Source: a virus
Length of the DNA stretch: 45,712 nt
Strand: one strand, 5' to 3'
IMG/VR virus record: IMGVR_UViG_3300024262_000004
Location: 1 to 45,712 of that record
The translations under genes and the position numbers were made by a program. This document shows positions 5,146 through 45,712 of the stretch, in pieces; position 1 is the first letter of the stretch; each line of letters opens with the position of its first letter. Under the pieces are notes generated by a model. It made no database searches. It was not told the origin of the DNA and was given only the letters and a program-made list of their open reading frames with translations.

Positions 5146-5619
5146 ATGCCAAAAGCTAATGAAATATATATTATTAATAAATCTAACTTTTCAAATTGTG
5201 TTAGCGTATTAGTAAAAGTTTGTGGAACTCTTAAATTTGCAAAACGAGAACCTACTAACCCGAACATATTTATTGATAATGTAACCAAAGCTCTGGCTTT
5301 TGGGAATTGTATTATTCTTGTTTCGTTTAACGAGAAGCAGGAATTGAATACTTGTATAGTTATGTTTGTTAAGAATAACCCTGTAAAGGGCTTAATTCTC
5401 TGGATAGAGTGGGCTTGGAGTGATGGGAAGAATTTGAGTTTGAGTAAAAATGTATGGAATAGAGTGGAAGAAATAGCACAAACAATAGGGGCTAAAAAAA
5501 TTGCAGGTGCTATGGTAAAAGGATTTAAAGCAGTAGGAAGAAGATACGGTTTAACCGAGGAATATCGAGTGATGTCAAAGAACGTAAAGAACGTAAAGGA
5601 AGTGATTAAAAATGATTAA
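5146..5619 (+). CDS. GNAT-fold-like protein
   Basis: The start is taken at ATG 5146 because AAGGGAG at 5131-5137 is 8 bases away; the in-frame TTG at 5140 is too close. The 157 residues show a GNAT-like order: a strand around CIILVSF, a long strand 'NTCIVMFVKNNPVKGLILWIEWAWS', a helix 'WNRVEEIAQTIGAKKI' and a final 'GFKAVGRRYGLTEEYRVM', like the end of acetyltransferases. A clear acetyl-CoA loop (Q/RxxGxG/A) is not evident, so activity is uncertain. GNAT-like proteins near tail genes are known in several phages. Confidence 0.5.
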   Translation: MPKANEIYIINKSNFSNCVSVLVKVCGTLKFAKREPTNPNIFIDNVTKALAFGNCIILVSFNEKQELNTCIVMFVKNNPVKGLILWIEWAWSDGKNLSLSKNVWNRVEEIAQTIGAKKIAGAMVKGFKAVGRRYGLTEEYRVMSKNVKNVKEVIKND

Positions 5620-6451
5620 CTTAAAAAGAATGTTAAGGAATATATTAATGTTCCCTGTGTTGGTGGCTTTTGCTGAGAAAGGAAGTTATGAAGATGACCC
5701 TGCACCGGTACAATTAACGACACCTGAATCAGAAGCAGCAGTTGGGCAATTACAGAATTTATCTACAACTACACCTAACTTACCTGATATTAGTTTACCT
5801 GGGACAACTGGGGCAGAAAACCAACTTCTGCAACAGGGTATGAGTTTAATTCAACAGTTGATATCAGGTAAAATGCCAGAAGCCTATACCTTGGGAATGA
5901 ATAAAATTAAAAGCGTATTAGGTGGGGAATATAATCCTTTGACTTCACCTTATTATAAAGGACTTAAAGAAGAAGCAGGCAGAATCGAATCTAAAGGGGT
6001 AAGTGATATAAGAAACAGAAGTCAATTAGGTGGTATGTTATACAGCGAACCTGCTATGGGAATTGAATCAGGTTTTAAAAGTGAAGTGGGGACTGGTTTA
6101 CTTCAGACTTTAGGAAGTTTATTTGAGTCTAATGTAAATAGAGAAACCAGTATGATACCCCAGTTATTAGGATATTCCAATGCAAAGACTAATATGATGG
6201 GAACTGCACTTTCAGGGATAGGGGCTATATCCCCACTTGCAGGGAAAGGTGGAGATATAGCCAGAGAAGAAACAAGTTTAAATTGGCAGCAAGATACTAA
6301 CCAAGAAATGTTCCCTTGGACTACACAAGCACCTATTTTAGAAAGTCTTGCTAATTATGGGACTTTCTATCAACCGACACAACATTATGAAAAAGGATTC
6401 TGGGATTATGTTTTACCTATAGTAGGGGCTGGAGCAAGCATTTTAAAATAA
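5612..6451 (+). CDS. Internal virion/ejection protein candidate 1
   Basis: This 279-residue protein has a hydrophobic N-terminus, a Thr/Pro-rich stretch and then helical segments rich in Gly, Gln and Met. It overlaps the GNAT-like gene by 8 bases and precedes two larger genes in tandem. In P22-like phages the same place holds the DNA-transfer (ejection) proteins. The segment 'IRNRSQLGGMLYSEPAMGIESGF' with following helices resembles internal virion proteins of several short-tailed phages. Role inferred from position and composition. Confidence 0.5.
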   Translation: MINLKRMLRNILMFPVLVAFAEKGSYEDDPAPVQLTTPESEAAVGQLQNLSTTTPNLPDISLPGTTGAENQLLQQGMSLIQQLISGKMPEAYTLGMNKIKSVLGGEYNPLTSPYYKGLKEEAGRIESKGVSDIRNRSQLGGMLYSEPAMGIESGFKSEVGTGLLQTLGSLFESNVNRETSMIPQLLGYSNAKTNMMGTALSGIGAISPLAGKGGDIAREETSLNWQQDTNQEMFPWTTQAPILESLANYGTFYQPTQHYEKGFWDYVLPIVGAGASILK

Positions 6452-6466
6452 AGGAAGTGATATTCA

Positions 6467-8062
6467 ATGCAAGCGTTAAGTTTTCCTTCTCCATATAGAC
6501 AAGGAGAAGCACCATACGATATATTTCAAAATAGAATGACTGCAATAACTTCTATAATAACAGGTGTAAAGGGTATCATAGCGAATAAATACATCAATAA
6601 TCAACTTAACCAGATTGCTGATGGTATTCTAAATCAAGTTGATGAGAATAAAGCAAATGAGTTGATTAACCTGATTAATGAAGATCCTCCTGAAGGTATC
6701 TATCCTTCTGAACTTGAAAAGACCATAGGACAGTTTGTAGATAAAGCTATGGGTAAAATGGCACAGAAAGAACAGATGATGGGAACTCTAAACCAGACTG
6801 GTTTACCTCAAAATCCACAGACAGGACTTCCTCAATTAGGACAACAATCTCAAGCTGGATTGCCTCAAGTTGGATTACCTCAAGCTGGGACTCAACAAGG
6901 AACTTCAGAAACCATGATACCAAAGGGAGATATGTTTCAGTTATACAACGCAGTCAAATCTATGGATTCAGGACAGGTTAACTGGGCTAACTTGTTTAAA
7001 ACTATGACAGCTAAAAAACCCTATTTCATGGGAACAACTGGGGCAGAAGAGTTTGTTATGAACCAAATGCAAACCCAGATAAAAGACCCAAGAGAAGAGA
7101 TGTCGAAAAATATTGATTTAGCTGCAAAATATAAAGAAGCTTTCTATCCTGAAGAAGAGGGAGTAGGAGAAGTTTTTGATCCTAACCAATTCAAGAAAGA
7201 CCATCCTGATATGGAGATAACAGGATATAACTCTAATACAGGTGGTTATAGTTTCAGTAAAAAAGAGGGAACAGGTTCTAAATTAGATATGGATAAGTTA
7301 AATGAAGATATAGCTAAATTTGGTTTAAATGTAACTGGAATGAGTGTAAATCCAACTACTGGTAATGTGTCTTATTCTTTAGGTAAGGAAGGAATGTCTT
7401 TTGAAGAAAAATTAGATAAGGGTATTAACTTTGTAAGAGAAAATCCTGAATATGAAATAAGTTCTCTTAATTCAGGGACGGGGAATGTTTCAATAACAAA
7501 AATATCAACAGGGGGGACAGGGGGAACTAATGACAAAGTAATCTTAGGTGAAGCTAATTTTGCAGAGAAACAATTTGAGGGAGTAAAGACAAATGCTGAA
7601 TATGATAAAGCACTTGCCAAAGTAAGACAGATTGACCAAAGTGTTATTGTGCCTTCAAAAATTGAATTATTTGAAGGTAATTATAATTTCGCAATAAATT
7701 ATATGCGTTCAGCTATAGATGAGAACGGAAAGATAAAGGAAGGTGTAGACCCTACAAGTAAAAGCGGGCTTACCTACGAACAGGGATATTCTCTACATTA
7801 TAATTATCTGGAACAAGCCATTAATGAATACCGTATTGCAACAGGGGAAACTTTAGATAATCCTTTTGTTTCTTTTGAGGAGTATAAAAAAATGGATACT
7901 AAAAAAACAAATTTATTACACTTGCCTTCTACTTTAGGGCAACAAAGGTCGGTATTCAAAAGTGAAAGCAATTATAAAGACGGAGAGATTAAAGTAATTA
8001 GTGGGAAGAAACTTAAATATGATGCAGGGAGGGACGCATGGGAGAAACTGGAATCTTTATAA
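6467..8062 (+). CDS. Internal virion/ejection protein candidate 2
   Basis: This 531-residue protein has a helical N-terminus and a low-complexity Gln/Leu/Pro/Gly stretch at about residues 105-145 with repeats of 'GLPQ' (eight or so, spaced by 'TGLPQNPQ', 'AGLPQV'). Two degenerate repeats follow at about 240-345, each built on 'EI.[GS]...[NS].TG..S.....G'. It overlaps the next gene by 25 bases. Probably an ejected virion protein with a flexible linker; no catalytic motif seen. Confidence 0.5.
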   Translation: MQALSFPSPYRQGEAPYDIFQNRMTAITSIITGVKGIIANKYINNQLNQIADGILNQVDENKANELINLINEDPPEGIYPSELEKTIGQFVDKAMGKMAQKEQMMGTLNQTGLPQNPQTGLPQLGQQSQAGLPQVGLPQAGTQQGTSETMIPKGDMFQLYNAVKSMDSGQVNWANLFKTMTAKKPYFMGTTGAEEFVMNQMQTQIKDPREEMSKNIDLAAKYKEAFYPEEEGVGEVFDPNQFKKDHPDMEITGYNSNTGGYSFSKKEGTGSKLDMDKLNEDIAKFGLNVTGMSVNPTTGNVSYSLGKEGMSFEEKLDKGINFVRENPEYEISSLNSGTGNVSITKISTGGTGGTNDKVILGEANFAEKQFEGVKTNAEYDKALAKVRQIDQSVIVPSKIELFEGNYNFAINYMRSAIDENGKIKEGVDPTSKSGLTYEQGYSLHYNYLEQAINEYRIATGETLDNPFVSFEEYKKMDTKKTNLLHLPSTLGQQRSVFKSESNYKDGEIKVISGKKLKYDAGRDAWEKLESL

Positions 8063-15334: not shown

Positions 15335-15771
15335 GTATCTTCTTCTCAAAGAACTTCAAATATTCAGAAATAGCTTGTCCTTGCTGTGGAAAGGATAGAC
15401 CGATTCATCCACAACTAACTTTTTTATTACAGGCATTAAGGGACAGAATAGGCAATCCAATTTATATTACCATCGGCGGTGGTATCCGCTGTAAAAAGTA
15501 TAACAAACGGATAGGTGGATATATAGACTCTCCTCATTTATACGGTAAGGCTGTAGATATACACGCTGGTATGGATATTGTATCGCTTGCGATACAAGCT
15601 AAAAAGATTGGCTTCTCCCGGATAGGTTTATATCCTTTTAGTCACTTTATACATGTTGATGTAGTTGAACCTTACCCAAGTGAAAGCTGGGTTAGAGATG
15701 TTAACGGTAAGTATAAATATTTTAAGACTTTAGAAGAAGCAATAAAGGAGGAAACATTTGTCAGATTATAA
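15331..15771 (+). CDS. Endolysin, M15-type peptidase
   Basis: This 146-residue protein has the zinc-peptidase pattern of the M15/VanY-like family: 'SPHLYGKAVDIH' (His and Asp zinc ligands, about residues 68-79) and 'HFIHVDV' (His, about 107-113). An N-terminal 'SEIACPCCGK' segment is typical of phage M15_3 proteins. It would cut peptide cross-links of peptidoglycan during lysis. It lacks a separate cell-wall-binding domain. It follows the holin candidate directly. A copy of the 16-nt palindromic repeat is embedded in its coding sequence at 15580. Confidence 0.85.
   Translation: MSIFFSKNFKYSEIACPCCGKDRPIHPQLTFLLQALRDRIGNPIYITIGGGIRCKKYNKRIGGYIDSPHLYGKAVDIHAGMDIVSLAIQAKKIGFSRIGLYPFSHFIHVDVVEPYPSESWVRDVNGKYKYFKTLEEAIKEETFVRL
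15580..15595. repeat. 16-nt CTTG hairpin repeat, copy in endolysin
   Basis: GTATCGCTTGCGATAC is a perfect palindromic stem around CTTG and extends to 20 bp with flanking TT/AA. It is coding here (IVSLAI). One of at least seven related copies in the genome. Confidence 0.75.
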
Positions 15772-16885
15772 ATGCCCTTTTTGTGGCTCTACAAACTTAA
15801 CAAAACGAGGCTTTAGCTCATACAATAAACAAAAATATAAATGTGAAGATTGTGGCAGATATCCGACAGAAGGGGCTAAACTAAACAGGGATAAAGAGGA
15901 TATAATATTAAAGTCTAATGATAGAAAACTAAAAGACTTATTAATAAAAAGTAGTTTTTCTATTGAGGAATTAAGCAATCAAACTGGCTTAATACCCAAA
16001 GAAATAAGAGAAAAAATCAAAGAATTAGAAGATAAACAATATAACATTAATTACACCGATAATAAAGTCGAACTTACAAAAGAAATGAAGTCAGGTAATA
16101 CTCAAAAATTAAACATAGATTACTGGAAAGGCGATTTAATAAAAATAGGCTTTGTATCCGATACTCACTTATGTTCTAAATTTGAGAGGTTAGATGAGCT
16201 TAATTTAATCTATGATGTTTTTGCAGATGAAGGAATTGAAGTAGTTTATCATGGTGGAAATTTTATTGAGGGAGAAAGTAGATTTAATAAATTCGAGATA
16301 CATACAATAGGAATGACTCCACAAGTAGATTACTTTGTAAAGAATTACCCTCAGAGAGAAGGTATATTAACAAAGTTTATAGCTGGGGACGATCATGAGG
16401 GATGGTATTCCCAAAGGGAACGGATTAACATTGGCGGATATACCCAAATGCAAGCTGAAGAAGCAGGTAGAAAAGATTTAGAGTATATTGGATATTTAGA
16501 ATGTGATATACCCTTTGAAGGTATAGAAGGTGAGTCATGGATGAGGGTTATGCATGGTGGCGGTGGCACTGCTTATGCTTTATCGTATACACCTCAAAAG
16601 ATTGTAGAGAGTTACGAAGGTGGAGAAAAACCCAGGATATTACTTTTAGGCCATTATCATAAAATAGATTACTGTTATCCGAGAGAAGTTCATGTAATAC
16701 AAATGGGTTGTTTTAAGGATCAAGATACATGGATGAGAAAAAAGAAAATACAGGCACATATTGGCGGTGGTATCCTGCACATGAGATTAGCCAAAGACGG
16801 AACGATTAACCGAATAATGCCAGAATTTATTACATTCTTTAATAAGAAATTCTATATTGGAAATGATAAATATTGGCTGCGTTGA
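15758..16885 (+). CDS. Metallophosphoesterase with N-terminal zinc ribbon
   Basis: This 375-residue protein begins at TTG 15758 (AAGGAGG 7 bases upstream) and overlaps the endolysin end. Residues 5-31 form a zinc ribbon (CPFCGS...YKCEDCG). Residues from about 128 carry metallophosphoesterase motifs: 'FVSDTHL' (D, H), 'HGGNFIEG' (in place of GD...), 'AGDDHEG' (in place of GNHE) and 'GHYHKID'. It probably acts on nucleic acids or nucleotides. The two non-canonical motif residues could shift metal use. Related proteins occur in many phages; their role is unsettled. Confidence 0.8.
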   Translation: MSDYKCPFCGSTNLTKRGFSSYNKQKYKCEDCGRYPTEGAKLNRDKEDIILKSNDRKLKDLLIKSSFSIEELSNQTGLIPKEIREKIKELEDKQYNINYTDNKVELTKEMKSGNTQKLNIDYWKGDLIKIGFVSDTHLCSKFERLDELNLIYDVFADEGIEVVYHGGNFIEGESRFNKFEIHTIGMTPQVDYFVKNYPQREGILTKFIAGDDHEGWYSQRERINIGGYTQMQAEEAGRKDLEYIGYLECDIPFEGIEGESWMRVMHGGGGTAYALSYTPQKIVESYEGGEKPRILLLGHYHKIDYCYPREVHVIQMGCFKDQDTWMRKKKIQAHIGGGILHMRLAKDGTINRIMPEFITFFNKKFYIGNDKYWLR

Positions 16886-16893
16886 GGTGATTT

Positions 16894-17301
16894 ATGTTTG
16901 ATATAAAAGAATATGGGAAACAATATCGTGGGAACCATCGGGAAGAATCCAAGAAATATGCTAAACAATGGTATAAAGATAATCGTGAAAAAGCAAGAGC
17001 CGCCATGAAAAGATATCGTGAAAACCATCGTAAAGAATTGTGTGAAATGGAGAAAATACGAAACAGAAAAAGAACTCCCTATATAGTGATAGCACAGGAA
17101 AAGATAGGTCGTGAATTAAGAGATGGTGAGGGGGTTCACCACATAGATATGAACAACAAAAATAATAATCCAGAAAATTTATATATTTATGAAAATAATT
17201 CAAAACACCAAAAAATACATGGAAGTTTAAATAGATTAGTAGCCGAACTTTTAAAGAATAATATTATTGAATTTAAAGATGATAAATATTGGATAAGATA
17301 A
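16894..17301 (+). CDS. HNH endonuclease
   Basis: This 135-residue protein has a basic, Tyr-rich N-terminal module ('EYGKQYRGNHREESKKYAKQ', with later 'KRYRENHRKE') and an HNH core 'GEGVHHIDMNNKNNNPENLYIY' around residues 83-106. That matches the HNH_3-type homing endonucleases. It sits between metallophosphoesterase and the nucleotide-metabolism-like gene, typical of an inserted mobile gene. The ribosome site is GAGGTGA. Confidence 0.8.
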   Translation: MFDIKEYGKQYRGNHREESKKYAKQWYKDNREKARAAMKRYRENHRKELCEMEKIRNRKRTPYIVIAQEKIGRELRDGEGVHHIDMNNKNNNPENLYIYENNSKHQKIHGSLNRLVAELLKNNIIEFKDDKYWIR

Positions 17302-17313
17302 TTGGAGGAAATT

Positions 17314-17643
17314 ATGAAATTTAAAAGAGTTTATGTAGCTGGAAGTTATAACGCTGACAATATTATAAAAGCATTGGATAATATTAAAAGGGGAACGAAA
17401 ATTTCTGTTGATTTGTTAAAAAAAGGTTATATCCCTTTTTGCCCTTGGTTAGATTATAACTTTCATTGGTTTGATAATTTAACTATTGAAGATTATTACC
17501 GTTATTCAATAGGTTGGTTAGAAGTTAGCGATTGTATTTATGTTTTAAAAAATAGCGAATGTTCGAGAGGAACAATAAAAGAAGTAGTAAGGGCTATGGA
17601 ATTAGGTATACCTGTGTTGTATGAGGGGAAGGATAGTTTGTAA
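17314..17643 (+). CDS. DUF4406/nucleoside deoxyribosyltransferase-like protein
   Basis: The start is ATG 17314 after GGAGG; the in-frame TTG at 17302 lies before the ribosome site. The 109 residues have the fold order of nucleoside 2-deoxyribosyltransferase-like proteins: 'VYVAGSY' at the N-terminus, a central 'LDYNFHW' region and 'SDCIYVLKNSECSRGTIKEVVRAMELGIPVLY' at the C-terminus, where the Glu before the last helix is usual. Activity on nucleotides is inferred; many phage members are uncharacterised. Confidence 0.7.
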   Translation: MKFKRVYVAGSYNADNIIKALDNIKRGTKISVDLLKKGYIPFCPWLDYNFHWFDNLTIEDYYRYSIGWLEVSDCIYVLKNSECSRGTIKEVVRAMELGIPVLYEGKDSL

Positions 17644-18003: not shown

Positions 18004-18174
18004 ATGGAACTTAAAGAAATTGAAAAAATCATTGGAGAAGCAATAGGTGAAGGTAGTATGTGTTGGAGTAAAATACCAGATGGGATATTTGATAGTAAAA
18101 ACGCAAGTAGAATTGTTGAAGAAACTGCTCTGAAAATACTTAACTTAAAAGAGAGAAATACATTAGTGTCATAA
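18004..18174 (+). CDS. Small protein, paralogue of the gene at 30656
   Basis: This 56-residue protein (starts MELKEIEKIIGEAIGEG) has a strong AAAGGAGGAAA site. Residues 3-43 are almost identical to the product of 30656-30817 (EKIIGEAIGEGSMCWSKIP core), while the C-terminal tails differ. The 16-bp sequence ATGGAGAGTGTCCAAC occurs both before (17955) and after it (18175). Function unknown; small early phage protein. Confidence 0.65.
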   Translation: MELKEIEKIIGEAIGEGSMCWSKIPDGIFDSKNASRIVEETALKILNLKERNTLVS

Positions 18175-19141: not shown

Positions 19142-19756
19142 TTGAGAATATTAACAGAAGAACATAAAAATAATATAAAAAAAAGTATGCTTAATTATTA
19201 TACAAAACACGAAAAAAATATAATAGATATGGTAGGAAAAAAATTTAATAGACTAACAGTAATTAAAAGGATATATCCAAATAAAAAAAATGGAAATACA
19301 AATTGGTTATGTAAATGTGATTGTGGAAATGAAAAAATAGTCGATGGATCAAATCTAAGAAGAGGAAATACTAAAAGTTGCGGGTGTTTACAGCAAAATT
19401 GGATGGAACTAAAACTCGCAAGCATGAGATATGTTATTCATGAATATAAAAAAAGTGCAAAAGGACGTGGATATGAATATAAACTAACTGAAGAACAATT
19501 TAAAGAAATAACACAAAAAAACTGCCACTATTGCGGAGCTAAACCCAGTCATCCTTCTAAGTATCAAGGTAATAATGGAGTATATATTTATAATGGTATT
19601 GACAGAATAGACAATACAAAGGGTTATATAATAGATAATGTTGTCCCTTGTTGCACAAGATGTAATTATGCAAAAAAGAATTTTGGGTTACAGAATTATA
19701 AAGATTGGATAAAGAAAAGTTATATTAAAATGTTTGCTAAAATCGACGCTTCATGA
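19142..19756 (+). CDS. HNH endonuclease with N-terminal CDC/CGC zinc module
   Basis: This 204-residue protein starts at TTG 19142 after AAAAGGGG. Residues about 32-80 form a cysteine module ('NRLTVIKR', 'CKCDCGN', 'SCGCL') common at the N-terminus of phage HNH/AP2 homing proteins. Residues about 122-182 are an HNH core with paired cysteines (CHYCG ... CCTRC) and 'GIDRIDNTKGYIIDNVVPCC'. It is flanked on both sides by about 110 bases of noncoding sequence, as expected for a recent insertion. Confidence 0.8.
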   Translation: MRILTEEHKNNIKKSMLNYYTKHEKNIIDMVGKKFNRLTVIKRIYPNKKNGNTNWLCKCDCGNEKIVDGSNLRRGNTKSCGCLQQNWMELKLASMRYVIHEYKKSAKGRGYEYKLTEEQFKEITQKNCHYCGAKPSHPSKYQGNNGVYIYNGIDRIDNTKGYIIDNVVPCCTRCNYAKKNFGLQNYKDWIKKSYIKMFAKIDAS

Positions 19757-20494: not shown

Positions 20495-20725
20495 TCTAAA
20501 CAGTAGAAAGATTGATACAAGAGTTGAACAAAAAGTGTTTAATAAGAAATCAAGTAATAAATTAGATGATACAGATATATATGCAAAAAGAGAAAAAGCT
20601 ATAGACGATTTAATGAAGGAGAAATTCCCTGAACCTGAGTTTACCTGCCCAGATATTTAATTGATTTGGGCTTCTGCACAAACCGCAACTAAAGCTGTAA
20701 TGATAGGGTACAGCACCTCCGGAAG

Positions 20726-20762
20726 AGCCAGTCGAGCCTGACCAACTTGGCTGGCTTTTTTT
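20726..20762 (+). terminator. Intrinsic terminator
   Basis: AGCCAG (20726-20731) pairs with CTGGCT (20751-20756), running directly into nine T residues. It ends the lipoprotein cassette and isolates the prepilin cassette. Confidence 0.8.
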
Positions 20763-20866
20763 TATTTTATTTTATTTTAAATTATTTTTATTATTTATGT
20801 CTAAAAAGTATAAAATTTGGGAATAATATATATAGAAGTAAAAAATTAAGAAAGGAGGTTCTTAAA

Positions 20867-21310
20867 ATGTTAAACTTTAGAAAAAGTAAGTTGGGTTTTA
20901 CCTTAATTGAGTTGATGGTAGTAGTGGCTATTATAGGAGTGTTAGCTTTGTTGGGATTAAGACTTTATACCGGTCAACAGCAAAAGGCTAAAAATGCTAT
21001 CGTAAAGGCGAATGCAGGCACTATACAAACCTTAATTCAGGCGGAGTTAGCAGATACTACAAGTGCAGATGTTAATGATATGTTAACTGGTACTACTGCT
21101 GACCCTATTACTTTATTCGAAAAATCAGGTATCCATATTCCAGATGGTGTAGCACAAACTGCAAATGGTACTTCTACTGACATTGGAATGGTAGTAGTTT
21201 TATATATTGACCCTAGTGCTACCGTTGTTGGTGATGAATCTTTCGAAATTAACGGAAACGCTTTTGTTACTGGAGATGTATTTGCAACTGCTTTAACAGC
21301 GAAAAAGTAA
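20867..21310 (+). CDS. Type IV prepilin-like protein
   Basis: The start is ATG 20867, with GAAAGGAGG 7 bases upstream. The 147 residues begin with a short basic leader (MLNFRKSKLG). The class-III signal GFTLIELMVVVAIIGVLALL follows, with Gly before the Phe cleavage point and Glu at mature position 5. This is the N-methylation and assembly motif of type IV pilins and type II secretion pseudopilins. A helix 'RLYTGQQQKAKNAIVKANAGTIQ' and a small beta domain follow, as in short pilins. It needs host PilD-type peptidase. It lies in a terminator-bounded cassette with a membrane protein. In a phage genome this is highly unusual; pilus interference or superinfection exclusion is inferred. Confidence 0.85.
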   Translation: MLNFRKSKLGFTLIELMVVVAIIGVLALLGLRLYTGQQQKAKNAIVKANAGTIQTLIQAELADTTSADVNDMLTGTTADPITLFEKSGIHIPDGVAQTANGTSTDIGMVVVLYIDPSATVVGDESFEINGNAFVTGDVFATALTAKK

Positions 21311-21311
21311 A

Positions 21312-21494
21312 ATGGAAAGAATAAAGAAAATTATTGTAGTCCTTATTGTAATCGTTCTTTTTGAAAGTTTAGCAATAATTACACTTTATCAAAGATGTCA
21401 AATGAATATGGACTTAATTGAACTTTTAGCAAACAGAGGTGTAACTAATAGTGAATTGATTTCCAGTTTACAAAAACAGATATCTCAAAAATAG
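21312..21494 (+). CDS. Single-pass membrane protein coupled to prepilin
   Basis: This 60-residue protein begins one base after the prepilin stop, so the two are translated together. It has an N-terminal membrane segment (about residues 7-27, 'IVVLIVIVLFESLAIITL') followed by a short helical tail 'LIELLANRGVTNSELISSLQKQ'. The topology resembles small pilus-assembly or inhibitor proteins, but no family is recognised. Confidence 0.65.
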   Translation: MERIKKIIVVLIVIVLFESLAIITLYQRCQMNMDLIELLANRGVTNSELISSLQKQISQK

Positions 21495-21501
21495 TTTTTT
21501 A

Positions 21502-21547
21502 CTCGACTTAAATTATACATTTTTTCTGCGGTCGAGAACGCAGAAAA
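21502..21547 (+). promoter_or_regulatory. Hairpin with complementary upstream strand (pseudoknot/switch candidate)
   Basis: TTTTCTGCG (21522-21530) and CGCAGAAAA (21539-21547) form a perfect 9-bp stem. The loop contains GTCGAG (21531-21536), perfectly complementary to CTCGAC at 21502-21507. The RNA can form a pseudoknot or an alternative fold just ahead of the terminator. Confidence 0.55.
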
Positions 21548-21551
21548 CTCC

Positions 21552-21587
21552 ACCACCCGGTCTGACTAACCGGGTGGTTATTTTTTA
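21552..21587 (+). terminator. Strong intrinsic terminator after prepilin cassette
   Basis: ACCACCCGGT (21552-21561) and ACCGGGTGGT (21569-21578) form a 10-bp GC-rich stem with a 7-base loop, followed by a T-rich run to 21587. Confidence 0.9.
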
Positions 21588-23866: not shown

Positions 23867-24292
23867 ATGCCCTGTAAAGACTTAGAGAAGAGAAGAGAAT
23901 ACCAAAATAAATATTATCATGAAAATAGTAAAAAAATAAATGAAGTTAGTAAGAGGTGGCGTGATAACACTCCTGAAAAACAGAAAGAATATTCTATAAA
24001 ATATCGTGAAAGAAAAGCAAAAACAGATAAGCAACGTCGTGAAAGAGTTAAAAAATATGTTAACTATTATAAGCTATCTAAAGGTTGTGCTATTTGTGGA
24101 TACAGAAAATGCGTAGAAGCTTTAGTTTTTCACCATATAGATAACGGAAACAAAAAATTTGATGTAGCTTCTGTTGCTAAAAATGGTGCGAATATCGAAA
24201 GAATTAAAAATGAAATTGATAAATGTATGGTTCTGTGTAGTAATTGCCATGCAGAACTACATACAAAAATAAGAAAAAAGGAGAAAAAATAA
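23867..24292 (+). CDS. HNH endonuclease
   Basis: This 141-residue protein has an N-terminal Lys/Tyr-rich module ('EYQNKYYHEN', residues about 10-65). A full HNH zinc-finger core follows: CAICG (about 76-80), 'FHHIDNGNKKFD' and 'CMVLCSNCHAELH'. It abuts the next gene with no spacer (TAA then ATG at 24293). It probably entered between the small early genes and the ssDNA-binding protein without harming either. Confidence 0.85.
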   Translation: MPCKDLEKRREYQNKYYHENSKKINEVSKRWRDNTPEKQKEYSIKYRERKAKTDKQRRERVKKYVNYYKLSKGCAICGYRKCVEALVFHHIDNGNKKFDVASVAKNGANIERIKNEIDKCMVLCSNCHAELHTKIRKKEKK

Positions 24293-28746: not shown

Positions 28747-28991
28747 AAACACTTCATTTTCATAAATTATACACTCCCTCGGATGTATCAAAAATAATAC
28801 AAAGAAAGGAGGAGGATATAGTCAAAATACTTGAAGAGGGGAGGGCAGAAGGTAAGAATTTCAGAGGATTTTGGTATATCCGGGGGCGTGAAGTTATAAA
28901 AATTCAGAAGTTATTAAAGGAGAAAGTAAAAAATGTTAGGATTCTTAATGATGGCATACAAAAAGAAAAAGAAAAGAAAACCGAGAAGTGA
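28743..28991 (+). CDS. Excisionase-like HTH protein
   Basis: This 82-residue protein overlaps the previous stop (ATGA). Residues about 10-50 match the small winged-helix plan of MerR/Xis-type binders: 'YTPSDVSKIIQRKEEDIVKILEEG' then 'FRGFWYIRGREVIKI'. No integrase is present, so a role in transcription or DNA architecture is more likely than excision. Confidence 0.6.
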   Translation: MKTLHFHKLYTPSDVSKIIQRKEEDIVKILEEGRAEGKNFRGFWYIRGREVIKIQKLLKEKVKNVRILNDGIQKEKEKKTEK

Positions 28992-29409
28992 TTTAAAAAA
29001 GTTAAATGACCATCTTGATAAATTATGGAGAGAAATTATATTACTTCGTGATGGTAACAAATGTATGAGATGTGGAAAAAGAAAATCACCGGGAAGTGGT
29101 AACTCAATCCAACCTCATCACATTTACGGAAGATCAAACTTTAGAGTTCGCTGGTGTCCTGAAAATGGGATTGCTTTATGTGGAGGTTGCCATACTCTTA
29201 CAAATCAATCAGCCCATAAAGCCCCAATAGACTTCATTAACTGGCTAAAACAAAAACGAGGGGAAGAATGGTGGTACAAATTAAGTGAAGAAGCTAATAA
29301 GGAAGGAGGTTCCCGAAAGTGGACAATAATAGAGAAGAAGGATTTGGAGATAGAACTGGAATGGACTCTACACAAGTTACAAATGAAGCATACGACAACC
29401 ATACATTAA
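28933..29409 (+). CDS. HNH endonuclease
   Basis: This 158-residue protein has CMRCGKR (about 46-52), 'QPHHIYGRSNFRVRWCPENGIALCGGCH' and a downstream 'FINWLKQKRGEEWW'. That is the CxxC...HH...CxxC core of phage HNH proteins that may act in recombination or packaging. It overlaps the HTH gene by 59 bases and the next gene by 91, which suggests long residence and not fresh insertion. Confidence 0.8.
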   Translation: MLGFLMMAYKKKKKRKPRSDLKKLNDHLDKLWREIILLRDGNKCMRCGKRKSPGSGNSIQPHHIYGRSNFRVRWCPENGIALCGGCHTLTNQSAHKAPIDFINWLKQKRGEEWWYKLSEEANKEGGSRKWTIIEKKDLEIELEWTLHKLQMKHTTTIH

Positions 29410-30655: not shown

Positions 30656-30817
30656 ATGGAAACTGAAAAGATTAAAGAGATTGAAAAAATCATTGGAGAA
30701 GCAATAGGAGAAGGTAGTATGTGTTGGAGTAAAATACCAGAGGGTATATTTGATAGTAAAAATGCAAGCAGGATTGTTGAAGAGACTACAAAGAAAGTAA
30801 TAGATATAATAGCATGA
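30656..30817 (+). CDS. Small protein, paralogue of the gene at 18004
   Basis: This 53-residue protein (starts METEKIKEIEKIIGEA) shares a near-identical stretch of about 40 residues with the 18004 product; DNA is near-identical too. Strong AAAGGAGG site. Function unknown. Confidence 0.65.
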   Translation: METEKIKEIEKIIGEAIGEGSMCWSKIPEGIFDSKNASRIVEETTKKVIDIIA

Positions 30818-45394: not shown

Positions 45395-45712
45395 ATGAGA
45401 AGAGTAGGTGGACAATGTGGGATAGGGAGTGCCTTATCCCCTAACCAAATAGGCGGCGAATCCTTTATCCGCCATATCGGCAACGATAAACTTATATATG
45501 ACTTCAAGTCAGGTTCGGGTACTGTAGTTCATGATAAATCTCATTGCGGAAATAACGGCACATTCGGAGCTGGAGCTGCCGCACCGACTTGGCGAAGGAA
45601 TAGTTTATATTTTGATGGCGGGGATTATGTAACTCTAACAGGAATTAATCATGGGATAAGTACTGGTGGATTGACGTTTTGTTGTAGTCTAAGTAATTTT
45701 AGTGATAGTAAC
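45395..45712 (+). CDS. LamG-like virion protein (5' part)
   Basis: ATG 45395 (site TAGGTGA) opens the protein whose end lies at 502 in circular coordinates (191 bases here up to 45585, then 1-502: 230 residues). The N-terminus 'CGIGSALSPNQIGGESFIRHIGNDKLIYDFKSGSG' leads into 'VVHDKSHCGNNGTF', the usual entry of LamG-like domains. Interrupted only by linearisation of the circle. Confidence 0.8.
   Translation, partial: MRRVGGQCGIGSALSPNQIGGESFIRHIGNDKLIYDFKSGSGTVVHDKSHCGNNGTFGAGAAAPTWRRNSLYFDGGDYVTLTGINHGISTGGLTFCCSLSNFSDSN
45586..45712. repeat. Terminal direct repeat, right copy
   Basis: Identical to 1-127; proves the contig closes on itself. Confidence 0.95.

Follow-up and report, generated by a model that had tools for sequence, protein, structure and literature searches.

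What does a bacteriophage gain from carrying a gene for a type IV pilin, and under whose control does that gene stand? The question is raised by a short cassette in a 45,712-base phage record (hereafter the window, meaning the whole stretch of DNA analysed), which also contains portal, terminase, and major head protein genes. A preliminary description of the window had proposed that a prepilin gene and an adjoining gene for a 60-residue membrane protein form a terminator-bounded pair, and that the pilin could enter the host pilus and block pilus-dependent infection by competitors, or re-model the adhesion of lysogens. Here we report a computational analysis of the cassette, its regulatory region, and its relatives in other phages and in the Atribacterota.

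Type IV pili commonly serve phages as receptors, and phages also disable these pili to shut out rivals (PMC11656802, PMC11436027). Phage products known to act on the host type IV pilus, including Tip, Aqs1, and Zip (PMC11656802), as well as Pf4 pVII and Gp21 (PMC11436027), act by inhibiting PilB or PilZ, by inactivating the pilus, or by reducing pilin expression, whereas the protein studied here is a pilin subunit. Receptor-converting morons, such as that of phage D3 (PMC11436027), follow the same logic as proposed below, namely alteration of a surface structure that phages bind, but the present cassette would supply a structural subunit and not an enzyme. The literature searched yielded no work on pilins encoded by phages, including those of Atribacterota phages. 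Pilin-like proteins of phages are already known as PHROG families, several of which match the present protein and one of which is named pilin, so that the earlier remark on the rarity of phage-encoded pilins holds only in part. Two of these families, phrog_3433 (pilin, moron) and phrog_27437 (unknown), are phage-encoded and carry the same N-terminal signal as the present pilin, which differs from them in being nearly identical to a host pilin helix and in having a host regulon promoter; no function study of their proteins was found in the literature searched.

The pilin cassette and its products

The features of the cassette are collected in Table 1. The prepilin starts with MLNFRKSKLG, which ends at the predicted cleavage site, and continues with FTLIELMVVVAIIGVLALLGLRLYTG. 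Residues 1-10 form the leader, Phe+1 is residue 11 and Glu+5 is residue 15, the assembly helix extends to approximately residue 63, and the variable head comprises residues 64-147. The prepilin peptidase signal is complete, with a basic leader, Gly-1, Phe+1, and Glu+5. HMM searches against pilin families gave matches above the cut-offs to Pfam N_methyl (E=7.5e-8) and NCBIfam TIGR02532, and further matches to phrog_3433 (E=9e-10, residues 6-52 only) and phrog_27437 (E=1.9e-11); together with the reading of the ORF, they confirm the previously described prepilin with its leader, helix, and Glu at mature position 5. An identity as GspG pseudopilin was rejected, since the score of 30.4 bits is below the curated cut-off of 88.85. 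A search of 50,697 INPHARED phages and of plasmids gave no match to the pilin at E 1e-3, and chance matches only at E 10.

Table 1. Features of the pilin cassette and its boundaries in the window
Feature	Position	Strand	Details
Intrinsic terminator 5' of cassette	20721..20761	+	16-bp stem followed by a T-run; -21.2 kcal/mol, z -4.5
Host-type promoter GTCTAA-N14-GGGAAT-AATATATATAG	20799..20836	+	68 nt 5' of ATG; sole copy in the window
Shine-Dalgarno AAAGGAGG	20851..20858	+	from sequence
Type IV prepilin gene	20867..21310	+	147 aa; ATG at 20867, stop at 21310; profile matches
60-aa single-pass membrane protein ORF	21312..21494	+	begins one base past the pilin stop
Small hairpin TCTGCG..CGCAGA	21525..21544	+	just after the cassette
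Intrinsic terminator 3' of cassette	21552..21578	+	within the 21525-21590 fold; -28.3 kcal/mol, z -5.5

The phage pilin shares with the major type IV pilins (PilA/PilE) the class III signal, Phe+1, Glu+5, and the long N-terminal helix, and differs from them in being phage-encoded; it contains no cysteine, unlike many pilins. Its matches in the PDB are 7tgg, 9egp, 8tum, and 6gv9, with geopilin PilA-N the best, and the head has no sequence match to any solved chain. Two AlphaFold2 runs gave low confidence for the head; they place a helix at residues 13-63, and in the deeper model the block pLDDT is 79-97 over residues 11-60 and mostly below 50 in the head. The protein is full length and intact, with a host-like C-terminal end (LTAKK; LPANKY in the related contigs L083 and L084).

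The downstream ORF encodes one strongly hydrophobic segment (Kyte-Doolittle 3.08), and the chance of a 60-codon open frame at this composition is about 0.7%. Both the ORF and its hydrophobic segment agree with the preliminary description, and the ORF is probably translationally coupled to the pilin gene. The proposed terminators were likewise confirmed by folding, their energies being far better than those of shuffled sequences (z scores in Table 1); the 3' element is terminator-like on the opposite strand too.

Recurrence of the cassette in other phages

Because it holds the genes for portal, terminase, and major head protein together with a 127-bp direct terminal repeat (positions 1-127 and 45586-45712), the window record looks complete. 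A search for the cassette in related phages recovered the promoter and the pilin in three other IMG/VR contigs, L002 (18.4 kb), L083 (43.4 kb), and L084 (46.0 kb), the phage comparison thus resting on only four phage sequences. Terminal repeats are long in the records of L083 (1,092 bases) and L084 (3,337 bases). The three contigs have a common backbone, 75-90% identical at the DNA level, and for the most part bear no relationship to the window phage; the promoter-pilin cassette is 76-78% identical in DNA between the window and these contigs. A segment of the window at positions 15730-16876, corresponding to one neighbouring gene, matches the record of L084 at 80%, and other matches to the three contigs are short or distant only, for example in the terminase. 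A further contig, L296, is syntenic with the replication module of the window and stops before the cassette site. In the L083-type phages the cassette is antisense to the structural genes, and in the window it is bounded by terminators.

The cassette resembles a host pilin locus, as would host DNA wrongly joined to a phage contig, an artefact against which the preliminary description had cautioned. However, the window record has a terminal repeat, the same cassette recurs in three other phage contigs where its flanks are phage sequence, and the short distance from promoter to start codon is common to the phages. Because of this recurrence we do not regard the cassette as an assembly join, and consider a mis-joining extremely improbable.

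In L002 the 60-aa ORF is reduced to its first eight codons and a stop (MERIKRII followed by the stop codon), and this stop is the exact point where L002 rejoins the L083 sequence. Given these breakpoints, the stub is best read as the scar of a presumed recombination, which would have brought a window-like promoter-pilin segment into an L083-like backbone, or the reverse. Nothing resembling the ORF is present 3' of the pilin in L083 and L084, and no relative of it was found in viral contigs. The idea that the 60-aa protein is a functional partner of the pilin therefore fared poorly: it has no detectable relative, is truncated in one phage, and is absent in two others.

The small hairpin occurs once per genome, just 3' of the pilin cassette, in the window and in the three other phages (L187, position 1077; L181, 5860; L185, 11892 on the minus strand). 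Its arms are TTTTCTGCG and CGCAGAAAA in the window and CCCCTGCG and CGCAGGGG in the other three phages, the changes in the stem being compensatory, and its GAG loop could pair with the CTCC that follows. A search for this hairpin in IMG/VR gave 45 matches, judged to be at about chance level.

Kinship with Atribacterota pilins

By far the best cellular match of the phage protein, at 54% over the full length, was a pilin from an Atribacteria MAG. The pilin locus of this MAG encodes PilC, a SigB/F/G-type sigma factor, a prepilin peptidase-like protein, a minor pilin, and an O-antigen-ligase-like TPR protein, and a 587-aa frame for a PilB/PilT-family ATPase is located just 5' of the locus on the same contig. 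A PilD-like protein is encoded in the host locus L003 (8911-9678). Such pilins were found in 13 of 50 Atribacterota genomes, and PilT scored above the cut-off in 35 of the 50.

Over residues 10-63, the phage pilin agrees with the UBA9904 pilin at all 54 positions, whereas the heads of the two proteins are only 27% identical. Host pilins show the same contrast among themselves, with 83-98% identity in the helix and 16-50% in the head, so the head of the phage pilin is as foreign as a head taken from another species. Judged by its sequence, the phage protein comes close to being a copy of the major-type pilin encoded in the type IV pilus locus of Atribacterota. A helix identical to that of a host pilin, combined with a different head, would also fit the earlier proposal that the protein could enter the host pilus. 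In the L003 locus, an O-antigen-ligase-like TPR protein (5553-7574) directly follows the host pilin, and host pili may for this reason be glycosylated. The head of the phage pilin is Ser- and Thr-rich.

The phage pilins cluster with the host pilus-locus pilins. In the maximum-likelihood tree, the pilins of the window and L002 fall inside one host clade and those of L083 and L084 inside another, and branches with strong support require two or more changes. Because there are two pilin clades, yet L002, L083, and L084 have one backbone and promoter, the pilin body has been exchanged within the cassette. The pilin type plausibly tracks the host infected.

Substitution counts differ sharply between the two parts of the protein. 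Between the window and L002 we counted 27 synonymous changes and 1 nonsynonymous change in the helix, where synonymous sites are saturated, compared with 22.7 and 47.3, respectively, in the head (Fisher p=2.5e-9); between L083 and L084 the numbers are 8 and 0 in the helix, and 6.5 and 29.5 in the head (p=1.7e-5). These counts point to strong purifying selection on the helix and a much freer head, and thus to a frozen assembly surface and a fast-changing exposed surface. Such a pattern would fit a protein that is accommodated in a conserved filament core and faces outside, and it argues against a neutral passenger.

The promoter and the missing c-di-GMP riboswitch

The promoter given in Table 1 precedes all four phage pilins, 68-72 nt before the start codon. 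Its relaxed form GTCTAA-N12-15-GGGAATAAT had 40 matches in 17 of the 50 Atribacterota genomes, compared with 1 match for a reversed-pattern control, and most of the 30 loci read among these 40 lead to a pilin gene or a c-di-GMP-I riboswitch. The motif marks a regulon of Atribacterota pilins and c-di-GMP riboswitches. A tighter form of the motif, scanned across the whole of IMG/VR with the window's own record left out, occurred nowhere but in the three relatives, where it precedes the pilin in every case. The motif resembles the sigma-B type consensus GTTTAA-N12-15-GGGTAT.

At three of the loci read, the motif-led gene encodes a relative of the pilus-locus sigma factor (40-42% identity), which suggests autoregulation and recognition of the motif by the pilus-locus sigma factor. 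These motif-led relatives are located in the Atribacterota loci L278, L289, and L291; the Rfam models place a c-di-GMP-I-GGC riboswitch before the first two and a c-di-GMP-I riboswitch before the third. Apparently, the regulon combines an autoregulated sigma factor with riboswitches and includes many exported lipoprotein-like genes.

In the host loci L003, L163, L166, and L171, one or two c-di-GMP-I aptamers separate the pilin gene from its promoter, and the promoters of such riboswitch-led pilins are located 434-637 nt 5' of the start codon. No c-di-GMP-I aptamer was found in the leaders of the phage pilins (approximately 30-45 nt). The absence of a riboswitch is not unique to phages, because short leaders lacking an aptamer also occur before some pilin genes of tandem-pilin hosts; the phage arrangement could have been taken over from a host of this kind or have arisen by loss of the switch. 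The pilA1 gene of C. difficile (PMC6200980) is a pilin gene led by a c-di-GMP riboswitch, like the nearest host pilins here and unlike the phage gene, which has the promoter only; the pilA1 switch is of class II (PMC6200980), in contrast to class I in the Atribacterota. Just 3' of the pilin promoter, a group II intron is present in L205 (1817-1901) and in L276 (G046:C55), at the place where related genomes lead one to expect the second tandem pilin gene.

Host and lifestyle

From the pilin and its promoter, we infer that the phage infects a member of the Atribacterota whose type IV pilus machine is retractable. The phage capsid and portal were not found as a prophage in the 50 Atribacterota genomes, and the search for CRISPR spacers gave no spacer match, only short weak DNA matches without repeat arrays around them. 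A 71% match of window positions 17323-17629 to the genome G053 was considered as a host link and set aside as weak, the matching contig piece looking phage-like. Neither a tyrosine integrase (PF00589) nor a serine resolvase-type recombinase (PF00239) was found in the window or its three relatives, which weakens the suggested re-modelling of lysogens and makes expression in lysogens uncertain. Settings in which the pilin gene could act are a slow lytic infection and a carrier state.

Proposed role of the phage pilin

On balance, and with confidence a little above even, we read the cassette as a moron, in which a host major-type pilin, with a host regulon promoter and without the riboswitch, would feed foreign-headed pilin into host pili. 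This reading draws on the gene itself, the identity of its promoter, the lack of a riboswitch, the identical helix and its purifying selection, the pilin exchange, and the host machinery; transcription, processing, and assembly in the cell, as well as a benefit to the phage, are inferred. Once phage DNA is inside, host RNA polymerase, probably with the pilus-locus SigB/F/G-type sigma factor, would transcribe the cassette independently of c-di-GMP and of phage factors. The host prepilin peptidase (PilD) would cut the prepilin after Gly10, and the identical assembly helix would let the phage subunit join the growing host pilus. The divergent head would then alter the pilus surface, with poorer attachment of pilus-dependent phages or changed adhesion of the cell as the result. 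Changed entry of pilus-dependent phages is most likely the leading benefit, since type IV pili are such common phage receptors and targets of exclusion, and altered adhesion the second. A bolder version, which we hold only tentatively, is pilus serotype conversion by Atribacterota phages: interchangeable host-matched pilin alleles behind a host promoter stripped of its riboswitch would yield foreign pili regardless of c-di-GMP, the alleles being exchanged to match the pilin type of the host.

Other explanations account for part of the same evidence. The phage may need host pili as a receptor or for aggregation, in which case a riboswitch-free pilin would keep infected or carrier cells piliated if c-di-GMP shuts the host gene, and its head would be the type of another host strain. 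The intact, full-length pilin with its host-like C-terminal ends and host-type promoter, the leader without an aptamer, and the match of the two phage pilin types to two host clades all speak for it. However, an extra receptor on the infected cell normally costs the phage through superinfection, and the explanation presumes the direction, on or off, of the host riboswitch; we consider it unlikely. The pilin might also act as a dominant-negative decoy that enters the pilus, where its head or the 60-aa protein would halt extension or retraction and pili would be lost. Phages are indeed known to disable pili against competitors (Tip, Aqs1, and Zip; PMC11656802), and the helix is identical to that of the host, but nothing in the pilin is truncated, its ends are conserved, and the 60-aa membrane protein is dispensable, which leaves a decoy distinctly unlikely.

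The promoter and gene are clearly of host origin and could have been transduced by chance and kept without benefit. Against such a passenger, the helix is under strong purifying selection, its synonymous sites being saturated, and two pilin types occur in four phage genomes, with the pilin exchanged behind a constant promoter; we regard a passenger as very unlikely. The combination of a host-matched major-type pilin, a c-di-GMP-regulon promoter without the riboswitch, exchange between related phages, and a link to the Atribacterota appears to be new. Known anti-pilus strategies of phages consist of motor inhibition or lower pilin expression; a major pilin supplied by the phage would, if true, be a different strategy in which the receptor fibre is altered from within, and a virus would have adopted the promoter of a second-messenger regulon of its host and left out the RNA switch. 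The cassette also ties these phages to the Atribacterota, a phylum that is mostly uncultured and on whose phages the literature searched says little, and the pilin with its promoter provides a sequence tag for finding further Atribacterota phages.

Other features of the phage genomes

The window phage contains a 116-bp direct repeat (18011-18126 and 30672-30787, 93% identity) and four HNH-type endonuclease-like genes (16894-17298, 19142-19753, 23867-24289, and 28933-29406). A zinc-ribbon and metallophosphoesterase-like gene at 15758-16882 is conserved at approximately 80% DNA identity across otherwise different phages and has at least 195 relatives in viral contigs. The tmRNA model was matched at both of its ends over only about 106 nt in the phages of the L083 and L084 types (L183, 1515-1620; L185, 19177-19360), and in L185 a tRNA gene adjoins this match.
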